Source of the DNA: Luteolibacter rhizosphaerae
GTDB lineage: Bacteria; Verrucomicrobiota; Verrucomicrobiia; Verrucomicrobiales; Akkermansiaceae
Length of the DNA stretch: 64,000 nt
Direction of reading: 5' to 3'
NCBI RefSeq assembly: GCF_025950095.1
Contig: NZ_JAPDDR010000013.1
Coordinates: 62,001-126,000, forward strand
Shown: in pieces, positions 27,247 to 31,946 of the stretch
How the letters are laid out: each line of letters opens with the position of its first letter
How positions within the stretch are numbered: the stretch's first letter is position 1
The notes under the pieces: model-generated
The model's database searches: none
Told to the model about the DNA's origin: nothing
The model's input: only the letters and a program-made list of their open reading frames with translations
Position numbers and translations under genes: made by a program

Positions 27247-30200
27247 ATGAGACCCCGTACCGATAGCATACCCACGCGTACACTAGCCGCCTTGGCAGCA
27301 CCGCTCCTGACCCTGAGCTATGCCTCTGCCGAAGTCATCGTCTTCAACGAGGCGAATACCACCAACGTCTGGACCATCCCCGCGGGTCCGAACTTGCTGA
27401 ACGGAACCCTGGCCACCCCGGCCACGGCGAATACCCATGAAGGCTCTTCCGCCGACTGGTCCACGCTCACCGATGGCATCCTCGGCACGCCGGGAAACAA
27501 TGCCGCCACCGTGACGCCTAACAATGGCGACAACGTGACCTTCCCCCTAGACGTCGTCGCGCAGCCCGCGGGCTACGACATCACATCCTTCAACTCCTAC
27601 GTCACCTGGGAGAACAGCGGAAGGACCAACCAGAACTATACGCTCCAGTACTCGACCGTCTCGGACCCGACGACCTTCTACGATATCGTCACGATCGGGA
27701 ACGGCGATTCCGGCTCCGACAAGGCGACTCACACCAGCATCACCGATACCAACGGCGTGCTGGCGACGGGCGTTCATTCGCTCCGCCTTTCCTTCAACAA
27801 CCAAGAGAACGGCTATGTCGGCTTCAGCGAGCTCAAGGCGCTGGCCACGCCGACCAACGTGGTCACCACGCTGGAGTCCAACGTCGGCAACGCATGGACG
27901 CTGCCAGCCGGCACGAACCTGCTGAACGGGAACATGGCCACGCCGCCGACCACGAACAGCAACGAAGGCTCGTCCGCGAGCTGGAGCACCGTGACCAACG
28001 GCACGCTCGGCACGGCCGCCGACATCAGCTCCAGCGTGACGCCGCCGAACAACAGCTCGGTGATTTTCCCGCTCGACCTCTCGGTGAATTTCAACGGCTA
28101 CAGGCTCACCTCCTTCGACTCCTACTGCGCCTGGCCTAACAGCGGTCGGGACAACCAGGACTTCGCCATCAGCTATTCCACGGTGGCGGATCCCGGCACT
28201 TTCATTCCCTTGGCCCACTCGGTGATCCACACCAGCGGTGACAATTCGACCCACGTGCGGATTACTCCCGCAGCCGGTGCGCTCGCCTCCGGAGTGGCGG
28301 CCATCAAGCTGGACTTCGGCCACCAGGAGAACGGCTACGTGGGCTACCGCGAGTTCATCGCGCTGGGCACCGCGGAATCCCTGACCGATGCGCTCACCTG
28401 GACGGGCAACAGCGGCTCCGCAGGCAATGCCACCTGGATCACCGCTGCGGATAATAACTGGAAGAAGACGATCGGCGGTGCGGCGGCACCCTTCGATCCG
28501 CTCGCGGCGCTGACCTTCGACAGCACGGGCGCGAACCGTAACATCACGGTTTCCTCCGCGCTTACCTCGTCCTCCGTGACGATCAATAACACCGCGGCCA
28601 CTCCCTATACTTTCGGTGGCCAGCAGCTCACGGTCAGCAATGAGATCATCTCCGCGGGAGCTGGCACGGCGACTTTCAATAACACGGTGAACGCCGTGGG
28701 CGGCGTGGCCTTGTCAGGGAGCGGGAGCATGGTCTTCAACGGCGCGGTCCAAGGCACCGGCGTGAGCGTGGCGGGCAGCGGTGCCATCACGCTGAACGGT
28801 GCGAATCCATCCCTGCTGGGAAATGCCTCGGTAACGAACGGCACCCTGACGGTGGCGAACAACGGGGCTTTGGAGAATGCGGCTGTCGTCACCACCGGTG
28901 GTGTCGTCCGCTTCATCTCGGCGACGCCGAAGATCGCCAGCCTGTCCGGAAGCTTCGGCTCCTCCGTGGTGCTGGGCAATGCCACCGGACCGGTGAACAC
29001 CACCCTGAACGTGGGCGATGAAAGCTCGATCACAACCTTCGGCGGCGACATCTCACCGGTGCCCGGACGCACCGGCGGCCTGACCAAGACAGGCGGCAGC
29101 ACGCTGACGCTTTCCGGCGTGAACACCTACGTCGGCCCGACCCGAGTGGAAGGCGGCACCCTGGAACTGCTCCAGCGCGCATCCCTCTACAACGGCAACA
29201 CCGCTTCCTGGACCACGAGCAACCTCGTGGCGCAAGACGGCGCGACCCTGCTGCTGGAAGTGGGCACCTTCGACGAATTCACCGAGGACGACGTGAACAA
29301 CACGATCGCGCTGGGCGGATTCCAAGCCGGTTCATCCCTGGGAATCGACAACACCGATCTCTTCATCTTGTCCCGCAACTTGACCCAGCCGGGCCTCGGC
29401 CTGCTGAAGACCGGACCGGGCACCTTGGAGATCACCGGGAACAACACTTCGAACGGTCTGACCCGGATCTTCGATGGCCGTGTGAATGCCATGAGCCTCT
29501 CGGGCACGGCCTTCGGCGGTGACATCCTTCTCGGCGATGCGGAGGGGAATGTCTTCCTGAACTTCGTGGAGGATAACCAGATCGCCCCAGGGGGCGTGAT
29601 CTCCGCCGCGAATGGCAGCTTCTACCAGACCAAGATCAACCTGCGCGGCACGGACCAAACCGTGGGAGGTCTTGAAGCCGCACCCTTTCCGGCGAACTAT
29701 GTCTCGCTCATCCAGAATGACGAGAACACGCTGCCGGACTACGCGGGTGTTCCCGAGCCAGCCACGCTCACGATCGATGCGGACACCGACCACAGTTTCA
29801 CCGGTCTGATCCGCGATGGTGACGGTGGTGCCCCGGTATCGGTCATCAAGACCGGTGAAGGCGTGCAGGAGTTGCGGAATCTCTCCGGCATCCAAGGCTA
29901 CGGCTACACCGGAGTCACAAGCCTGAACGAAGGCACGCTGCGGCTGAACTTCGGCGGCGGTAACTTCGAGTTCGCCTCGCCGATCGAGATTGCCGGGGTT
30001 GCGACCCTGAACTTCCGCGCGGTGTCCGGGAACTGGGTCTTCGGTGCCGCTGTCTCCGGTCCGGGCAAGGTCCTGGTGGATGGCAACAACGCGGTGGTGC
30101 TGAACAACGGCGCCAACTCGTGGTCCGGTGGTACGGTCGTGAACGGCGGCTTCCTCGCCCTGGCCGGCAATGGCTCGGCAGGCGAGGGGACCGGCCCCGG

Positions 30201-31347
30201 CCAGACCTCGGTCGGCGGCGCGATGGATCCCACGAACCTGATCGACATCACCAACATCGCCACGCTGTCGCTTGATGGCATCGCACCGCTCGGGAATTCC
30301 AACATGCTTCCCGAGTTCGCGCCTTCGATCCGCATTAATGAAGGTTCGCGGATCTACGGCGGCACCAACACCGTCGCCTTCGTCCCGAACCTCACGCTAA
30401 ACGGCGGGGAGATCGAGATCACGGATGGCGCCGGTCACGGCGGCTTCAACACGAACATCGCGCTCGTCGGCACGGTGATCGTGGGCGGCAGCAGCACGCT
30501 TCCCTCGGAGATCGCCACCGTCGGCACCGGCCCGAATGCGAATGTCTCGCTCGGCTCGACAGGTGTTCCCGGAACGGTGTTCCAGGTGGCCGATGCCACC
30601 GGTAGTGCCGCGGCGGATCTCACGATCTCCTCGGTGCTCCGGAATGTGGGTGGTTCGGTCTCGCCGCTGACCAAGACCGGTCCCGGCACGATGGTGCTCA
30701 CGGGTGCGAACGTCTATACCGGCACCACCCGGGTGAGCGCTGGCTTGCTCCAGCTGGACACGGCCTACCTCGCCGATGCTGCGGCGCTTGTGATCGATAA
30801 CGCGGGAACGTTGAACCTCGCCTACACGGGTACGGACACGGTGGCCTCGCTCACCTTGGGCGGCACCGAGCACCTGTCCGGCACCTTCGCTGCGATCGGC
30901 AATGGCGGCCCGGGCATTACCGAGACGGCACGCATCACCGGCACCGGCCGCATCACGGTCTCGCAGAACACCGGCGTGTCCTACGATACCTGGTCACAGG
31001 TGATCCCGAATGCAGGCGACCGCGACCGTGCCGCCGATCCGGATGGCGATGGCCTGACGAACCTGGAGGAATACCTCTTCGGCACCTCGCCCGTGAGCGG
31101 CAGCGGTTCGCTGGCGCGCATCGAGCAATCCGGCGCGAACCTGATCGTCCGCTGGAACCAGCGTGCGGCGGGTAGCAGTGTCTATGTGCTGCAGGAGAGC
31201 ACCACGCTGCTTGATGGATCGTGGACCACCAGCACCGCCACCATCACGAACAGTGCGGTGCAGGACATCCCCGACTACGTGCGCAAGGAAGCCGTGATCC
31301 CGGTCGGCGGCGTACGCAAGTTCGTGCGCGTCCAAGCGACCGAGTGA
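27247..31347 (+). CDS. Giant autotransporter-associated beta-strand-repeat surface protein
   Basis: 1366 residues with a signal peptide (TLAALAAPLLTLSYASA). Residues about 30-200 and 206-375 are two copies of the same domain, each with WTIPAG-NLLNG, HEGSSADWST-type and NQENGYVGFSE motifs. A long beta-helical region follows, with passenger (PATR) repeats such as GGLTKTGGSTLTLSGVNTY and LTKTGPGTMVLTGANVYTG. The C-terminus has a calcium-type DPDGDGLTNLEEYLFGTSP segment and a final beta domain. There is no autotransporter barrel and no PEP-CTERM tail. Expected to be an exported adhesin-like or matrix protein. It has a clear terminator and no operon partner. Confidence 0.9.
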   Translation: MRPRTDSIPTRTLAALAAPLLTLSYASAEVIVFNEANTTNVWTIPAGPNLLNGTLATPATANTHEGSSADWSTLTDGILGTPGNNAATVTPNNGDNVTFPLDVVAQPAGYDITSFNSYVTWENSGRTNQNYTLQYSTVSDPTTFYDIVTIGNGDSGSDKATHTSITDTNGVLATGVHSLRLSFNNQENGYVGFSELKALATPTNVVTTLESNVGNAWTLPAGTNLLNGNMATPPTTNSNEGSSASWSTVTNGTLGTAADISSSVTPPNNSSVIFPLDLSVNFNGYRLTSFDSYCAWPNSGRDNQDFAISYSTVADPGTFIPLAHSVIHTSGDNSTHVRITPAAGALASGVAAIKLDFGHQENGYVGYREFIALGTAESLTDALTWTGNSGSAGNATWITAADNNWKKTIGGAAAPFDPLAALTFDSTGANRNITVSSALTSSSVTINNTAATPYTFGGQQLTVSNEIISAGAGTATFNNTVNAVGGVALSGSGSMVFNGAVQGTGVSVAGSGAITLNGANPSLLGNASVTNGTLTVANNGALENAAVVTTGGVVRFISATPKIASLSGSFGSSVVLGNATGPVNTTLNVGDESSITTFGGDISPVPGRTGGLTKTGGSTLTLSGVNTYVGPTRVEGGTLELLQRASLYNGNTASWTTSNLVAQDGATLLLEVGTFDEFTEDDVNNTIALGGFQAGSSLGIDNTDLFILSRNLTQPGLGLLKTGPGTLEITGNNTSNGLTRIFDGRVNAMSLSGTAFGGDILLGDAEGNVFLNFVEDNQIAPGGVISAANGSFYQTKINLRGTDQTVGGLEAAPFPANYVSLIQNDENTLPDYAGVPEPATLTIDADTDHSFTGLIRDGDGGAPVSVIKTGEGVQELRNLSGIQGYGYTGVTSLNEGTLRLNFGGGNFEFASPIEIAGVATLNFRAVSGNWVFGAAVSGPGKVLVDGNNAVVLNNGANSWSGGTVVNGGFLALAGNGSAGEGTGPGQTSVGGAMDPTNLIDITNIATLSLDGIAPLGNSNMLPEFAPSIRINEGSRIYGGTNTVAFVPNLTLNGGEIEITDGAGHGGFNTNIALVGTVIVGGSSTLPSEIATVGTGPNANVSLGSTGVPGTVFQVADATGSAAADLTISSVLRNVGGSVSPLTKTGPGTMVLTGANVYTGTTRVSAGLLQLDTAYLADAAALVIDNAGTLNLAYTGTDTVASLTLGGTEHLSGTFAAIGNGGPGITETARITGTGRITVSQNTGVSYDTWSQVIPNAGDRDRAADPDGDGLTNLEEYLFGTSPVSGSGSLARIEQSGANLIVRWNQRAAGSSVYVLQESTTLLDGSWTTSTATITNSAVQDIPDYVRKEAVIPVGGVRKFVRVQATE

Positions 31348-31416: not shown

Positions 31417-31508
31417 GATTTTGTGGAAGTGCTCCCATCGCTCGCGGCACCGTCTACCCCTTGACCGCTCCCGTGAGCGGTTACAGGTTTCAAGCCTGCC
31501 TTCACCTC

Positions 31509-31946
31509 ATGAGAACGGGACTATCAGTTGTAATCGTTGCCGCGCTCATCGTTTCCTGTGAACGCAAGGAGCCAGCGCCAGCCGCGAAGACGCCGGAAGC
31601 TGCATCACCCGCCGCGGAGGTGAACCCGCCGCGCAAGACCGGCGAGGGTCCGATTCATTCCACCGACGTGCCGACCGTGAGCGAACTCGCCGCGATCGAT
31701 CCGCGCACCGGCAAGGTGATGGCCAAGCTGCGCGATCTGATCGTAAAGCAACTGGATGTCTCGCCGGACAAGGTGGTGCCCGAGGCGGGCTTGCGGAAAG
31801 ACCTCGGTGCCGACGATCTCGATATCGTCGAATTGATCATGGCCATGGAAGAGGAGTTCAATCTCTCGATCCGCGATGAGGATGCGGAGAAGATCCAAAC
31901 CTTTGGCGATGCGGTGGAAACCTTGCTTCGCCTCGGCGCGCGCTGA
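31509..31946 (+). CDS. Lipoprotein with acyl-carrier-protein fold lacking the phosphopantetheine serine
   Basis: 145 residues from ATG 31509. Lipoprotein signal [17 protein letters not shown] (Cys17 lipidated), an Ala/Pro/Lys linker to about residue 55, then a complete ACP-like domain (about 65-142): [40 protein letters not shown] and [20 protein letters not shown]. In ordinary ACPs the motif is DSL, with serine carrying 4'-phosphopantetheine; here it is DDL, so Asp103 stands at that position and the prosthetic group cannot attach in the usual way. An ACP fold outside the cytoplasm is unexpected. The longer upstream start is rejected because it hides the signal peptide. Function unknown. Confidence 0.82.

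Follow-up and report, generated by a model that had tools for sequence, protein, structure and literature searches.

An acyl carrier protein (ACP) is the textbook cytoplasmic carrier and is defined by one modified serine. A gene in the window, the 64,000-nucleotide stretch of DNA analysed here, raises the question of what such a domain would do behind a lipoprotein signal peptide and with an aspartate in place of the serine. The gene (31509-31946, forward strand, as are all parts given below) is an intact open reading frame that starts with ATG at 31509, ends with the stop codon at 31946 and predicts a lipoprotein of 145 aa with an ACP-like domain. The frame is open upstream to a TTG at 31461, and a start there would still retain the lipobox; the alignment with the orthologue from another genome of the same genus (G015) begins at the ATG.

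Residues 1-16 (31509-31556) form a predicted lipoprotein signal peptide running up to the lipobox IVS-C, and the G015 orthologue has LGA-C near the same place. The 11-residue stretch ending at Cys17 (31557-31559), the predicted lipidation site, fits a lipobox pattern of the PROSITE type. By pattern, an n-region, a hydrophobic core and a lipobox with its cysteine were found in this protein and likewise in its counterparts in G015 and in genome G502. A low-complexity linker of about 50 residues (31560-31712), rich in Pro, Ala, Lys and Glu and of low pLDDT, follows Cys17 and aligns with that of G015 in the stretch STDVPT...DPR. The remainder, residues 69-145 (31713-31943), is the ACP-like domain, identified by Pfam, NCBIfam, a sequence match in the structure database, the predicted fold and Foldseek. 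The position of the phosphopantetheine serine is occupied by Asp103 (GAT, 31815-31817). The preliminary description of this locus had proposed that a lipoprotein signal precedes an ACP fold without the prosthetic-group serine, and this combination of signal, full domain and aspartate is confirmed.

Five neighbours of the gene were scanned and predict ParB, an M28 peptidase, a cytochrome c assembly protein, a PATR-repeat protein and DnaJ. The gene immediately upstream, in the same orientation, encodes the PATR-repeat protein (27247-31344; 1366 aa). PATR-like genes were seen by eye upstream of related lipoprotein genes in genomes G051 and G486 and are absent from that place in G015, G488 and G460, and the arrangement was treated as chance.

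The Pfam PP-binding family matches residues 73-138 (7.1e-10), and of the solved structures the one most similar in sequence is that of an ACP (2ehs, 3.3e-19). NCBIfam model PRK00982.1-2 matches at 8.2e-26, which passes the family cut-off, and automatic annotation calls such proteins acyl carrier proteins. In an AlphaFold2 model built from a 19-row alignment, mean pLDDT per ten-residue block is 96-98 between residues 71 and 140 and 57-66 over the first 60 residues. Foldseek returned ACPs as the top matches for the predicted four-helix fold, with target TM-scores up to 0.95. Helix II is acidic (net charge -6; domain pI 4.45), and the acidic helix II face noted in the preliminary description is indeed retained. 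The protein thus resembles AcpP (PF00550, NCBIfam PRK00982 / TIGR00517) in sequence, predicted fold, acidic helix II and the GAD-x-LD-x-VE motif, but differs from it in the lack of the attachment serine, in the lipoprotein signal and linker, and in its predicted location outside the cytoplasm. Judged by its sequence it is a member of the ACP family that lacks the DSL serine by which a working ACP is defined. Its own genome (G000) also contains an ordinary ACP (L003) and two matches to the phosphopantetheinyl transferase family, and the lipoprotein copy is thus not necessarily needed for fatty-acid synthesis.

All 57 genomes searched, G000 included, gave some match to the window protein, but a near full-length match was found only in G015 (residues 11-145, 56% identity, 2.2e-37). 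At E <= 1e-12 the lipoprotein ACP is present in 2 of the 18 genomes of the genus, G000 and G015. In the G015 protein both the lipobox and the linker motif are present, yet the attachment site is a serine, so export would have preceded serine loss or been independent of it, and the G015 protein may still act as a carrier.

Eight lipoprotein-like ACPs were found. Seven of them, spanning four families, have Asp at the site, a count that is not a frequency since the sampling favours Asp: G246 and G502 came from Asp-specific pattern searches (387 and 386 genomes), and G486, G488 and G460 were found by similarity to an Asp protein. The GADD[LF]D pattern matched in 9 of 387 genomes of the phylum, six of which were judged by eye to be non-ACP, and a looser Asp pattern matched in 30 of 386 genomes across the order, mostly in sequences that are not ACP-like. 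The G051 protein was among the matches to the window protein and, used as query, retrieved the long form in 4 of the 68 genomes of family f4 (G051, G486, G488 and G460), all with Asp and with a C-terminal tail common to the four. The preliminary description had asked whether the DDL motif and the signal peptide are conserved together; this holds for five further genomes in two other families, where lipobox and Asp occur together as in the window protein (G502, G051, G486, G488 and G460), but not cleanly for G246, which has Asp with a non-standard lipobox that fails the pattern. The long frames from G070, G746 and G091, among the matches listed in a profile search of the phylum, contain ordinary ACPs. 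Membrane-protein genes follow the f4 lipoprotein gene, and in G486 and G488 a gene after it encodes a conserved protein of 241 aa that has membrane-like stretches (L214 3310-4032 and L215 3759-4481, both reverse strand). By eye, the neighbours of the lipoprotein genes and of the fused-type genes described below revealed no shared operon.

A pattern scan of genome contigs returned at least 120 stretches, of which three were ACP-like by eye (L116, L157 and L166). L166 (5686-5925, forward strand), from Pseudomonas sp. v388, is a free 80-aa ACP-like protein with GADDLDIVE in place of the serine motif, and has a one-residue gap in common with the f4 and G502 lipoproteins. As this free protein carries Asp, serine loss does not appear to be strictly tied to the envelope. 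A plasmid search with L166 gave 128 records, the 40 listed being mostly from Sinorhizobium and acpP where annotated, and a phage search with the window protein gave 55, of which the 20 listed are acyl carrier proteins or unannotated.

A second architecture consists of two transmembrane helices, a DcrB/PsbP-like domain and a C-terminal ACP. A full-length profile built on seven rows, of which two derive from an Asp-pattern hit, was run over 376 genomes of the order. The two-helix DcrB/PsbP-like protein was found to carry an ACP tail in 8 genomes and, judged by profile coverage, to lack it in 22, with 4 of the 22 unfused frames read through to their ends. The attachment-site residue in the eight fused genomes is S in three and D in two, while one genome each has G, E and A, so serine appears to be dispensable in the fused membrane type. 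The G010 protein, first met among the matches to the window protein, has S. Two metagenome-assembled loci, L116 and L157, have D at the site, and the L157 sequence is identical to that of G718, which belongs to the same family as the window's genome. The middle domain resembles the PA94, EagT6 and DcrB structures in a low-confidence model (mean pLDDT 62), and charge counts give no decision on topology or, hence, on the membrane side of the fused ACP. DcrB/EagT6/PsbP-like fused proteins are comparable to the window protein as membrane proteins that bear an ACP domain whose serine site varies; they differ in having two transmembrane helices and an alpha/beta domain where the window protein has a lipid anchor. 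The unfused DcrB-like gene of G000 and G015 (L374 1956-2765, forward strand; L375 2174-2905, reverse strand) has a similar neighbour in both genomes, one that predicts a 368-371-aa protein with a signal-like start.

The serine codons separate the lipoprotein and fused domains from the others. A motif search (LG[ASTG][DE]S type) found 113 distinct serine-bearing domains among the collected loci, 108 with TCN and five with AGC codons. The five are the G015 lipoprotein and the fused proteins of G008, G010, G011 and G005, so that AGC is used in 5/5 lipoprotein or fused domains with serine and TCN in all 108 others, which were taken as free ACPs rather than each read individually; by pattern, no lipobox was found upstream of any of the 108. 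AGY makes up 36% of the serine codons in seven window genes. GAY, GGY and AGY are each one step from the next, and the TCN and AGY sets are disjoint (PMC6872785). The pattern is most simply read as the AGC lineages having gone through a non-serine state, and suggests that serine was not continuously required. The alternative is a tandem double change from TCN to AGY with serine present all along. As the four fused proteins among the five with AGC are orthologues of one another, about two independent switches are left to be explained.

The preliminary description had taken serine-bearing homologues as the sign of a single mutation. The closest homologue, that of G015, does have serine, but it has the lipobox as well and encodes its serine by AGC. 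A single point mutation or sequencing error was rejected, as G015 AGC and window GAT differ in all three bases and other ACPs with the motif use TCN. With a lipobox also on the serine-bearing relative, and AGC there against TCN in 108/108, the window copy is, on the sequence evidence, not simply a functional ACP that has suffered one point mutation.

A tree built from 39 domains, drawn without G460 and G639, places the window and G015 domains together (100/99), weakly placed among free ACPs, and groups G502 with three f4 lipoproteins (97/92). Deep branches are poorly resolved and long branches make deep joins unsafe in this tree, on which the lipoprotein label needs three changes, the starred branches forcing only one. 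It is likely from this tree that the lipoprotein ACPs have more than one origin.

Several small ACPs that appear to be circularly permuted were also encountered: two in L358 (2342-2770 and 7596-7931, reverse strand), two in L359 (1575-1862 and 3303-3638, forward strand) and, by eye only, one in L217 (3774-4031, reverse strand). They start near helix II at M-x-x-(D/E)-SVE(L/F), and helix I together with a stretch of DLG/DLD type closes the protein immediately ahead of the stop codon. In the L358 and L359 frames the two halves of the ACP profile match in swapped order. Longer permuted relatives (L366 674-1372 and L372 700-1305, forward strand; L360 606-1064, reverse strand) have a long middle part between the ACP halves, the second of which matches weakly, and by eye the L366 middle includes membrane-like stretches. 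Among the titles and abstract openings listed in the literature searches, no report of an exported serine-less ACP or of a circularly permuted ACP was found.

The window protein is probably a cofactor-free, membrane-tethered, acidic ACP-fold module with a predicted protein-binding role, the fold being reused beyond fatty-acid carrying. A copy of an ordinary ACP would have acquired a flexible linker and, ahead of it, a lipoprotein signal peptide, and the product would be exported, lipidated at Cys17 and held on a membrane facing the periplasm. To our knowledge neither coenzyme A nor a phosphopantetheinyl transferase is expected in that compartment. Serine is proposed to drift because the prosthetic group would be of no use there, often to Asp, which would still be able to cap helix II, and selection would have kept the acidic four-helix bundle as a tethered binding module for another envelope protein. 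We infer export, lipidation, lack of the prosthetic group and the binding role; the observations they draw on are the sequence features, the predicted fold, the relatives, and the codon and dN/dS patterns.

An unlikely but appreciable alternative is that the lipoprotein ACP is the envelope half of a split protein, acting with the DcrB/PsbP-like two-helix protein that is fused to related ACP domains elsewhere. Among the 18 genomes of the genus, a full-length unfused DcrB-like gene was detected in just two, G000 and G015, the same pair that carries the lipoprotein ACP; of the others, five have the fused form, one (G007) a fragment, and ten no match at E <= 0.001. Were the genomes independent, the chance of this overlap would be 1/153. 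However, the neighbour of the DcrB-like gene is common to G000 and G015, and the two may be sister species, so the coincidence may reflect one event. The two genes are on different contigs in both genomes, and among the secondary matches read no lipoprotein ACP was seen in the 20 genomes outside the genus that have the unfused gene. Conversely, none of the DcrB-like matches listed at E <= 1e-25 came from G051, G486, G488, G460 or G502, which have a lipoprotein ACP, and the lipoprotein and fused ACP domains do not group in the tree, where support is weak. The DcrB/PsbP-like membrane protein, encoded in its unfused form at G000:C2:233051-233761, is a weak lead as a candidate partner.

It is improbable that the gene is a non-functional paralogue, a duplicated ACP decaying behind a signal peptide, as the patchy presence in the genus and the variable attachment site of the fused type might suggest. 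Simple Nei-Gojobori estimates for the window and G015 genes are dN 0.43 and dS 1.27 overall, 0.32 and 0.91 in the ACP part, and 0.53 and 1.76 in the linker. For the ACP part of the G051, G486 and G488 pairs, dN is 0.12-0.18 and dS 0.60-0.75; the G051-G460 pair is saturated. Short of a formal test, dN/dS below 1 argues against decay, as do the conserved linker motif and reading frame and the four f4 orthologues with their conserved tail.

In fold classification, colicin E immunity proteins have the ACP-like four-helix fold, and a periplasmic immunity or inhibitor protein on that fold might be envisaged, the more so as the copy in G246 is surrounded by small unannotated genes, with what looks by eye like a transposase gene present twice nearby. 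The window protein, however, matches ACP families and no immunity family in Pfam and NCBIfam, and its five scanned neighbours, of the kinds listed above, include no cognate toxin gene, making this role very improbable. Least credible of all is a mis-set start, with a cytoplasmic ACP beginning at the internal ATG (Met71) just ahead of the domain, since G015 has no Met at that place yet has the lipobox and linker motif, and a lipobox with K/R near the start arises at only 18 of the 3090 window start codons that are followed by 35 codons without a stop.

As a tethered module that binds without a cofactor, the window protein would be at most analogous to mitochondrial ACP, which acts as a bound structural partner in complex I and the Nfs1-ISD11 complexes, entries for which were among the structure matches. 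Mitochondrial structural ACPs retain the serine and the acyl-phosphopantetheine arm, unlike the window protein. The latter is genuine and uncommon as an ACP variant, with conservation in small groups and a putative function. More broadly, and at somewhat less than an even chance, the ACP fold may have been moved repeatedly to the envelope in Verrucomicrobiota, more than once as lipoproteins and as the C-terminal domain of DcrB/PsbP-like proteins, to serve now as a cofactor-free binding module in which serine drifts or becomes Asp, with AGC codons as the scar of a serine-free period. If this is true, such proteins would offer natural cofactor-free ACPs for work on ACP-partner recognition, and the ACP surface would be useful by itself, in the envelope and without the attachment serine.
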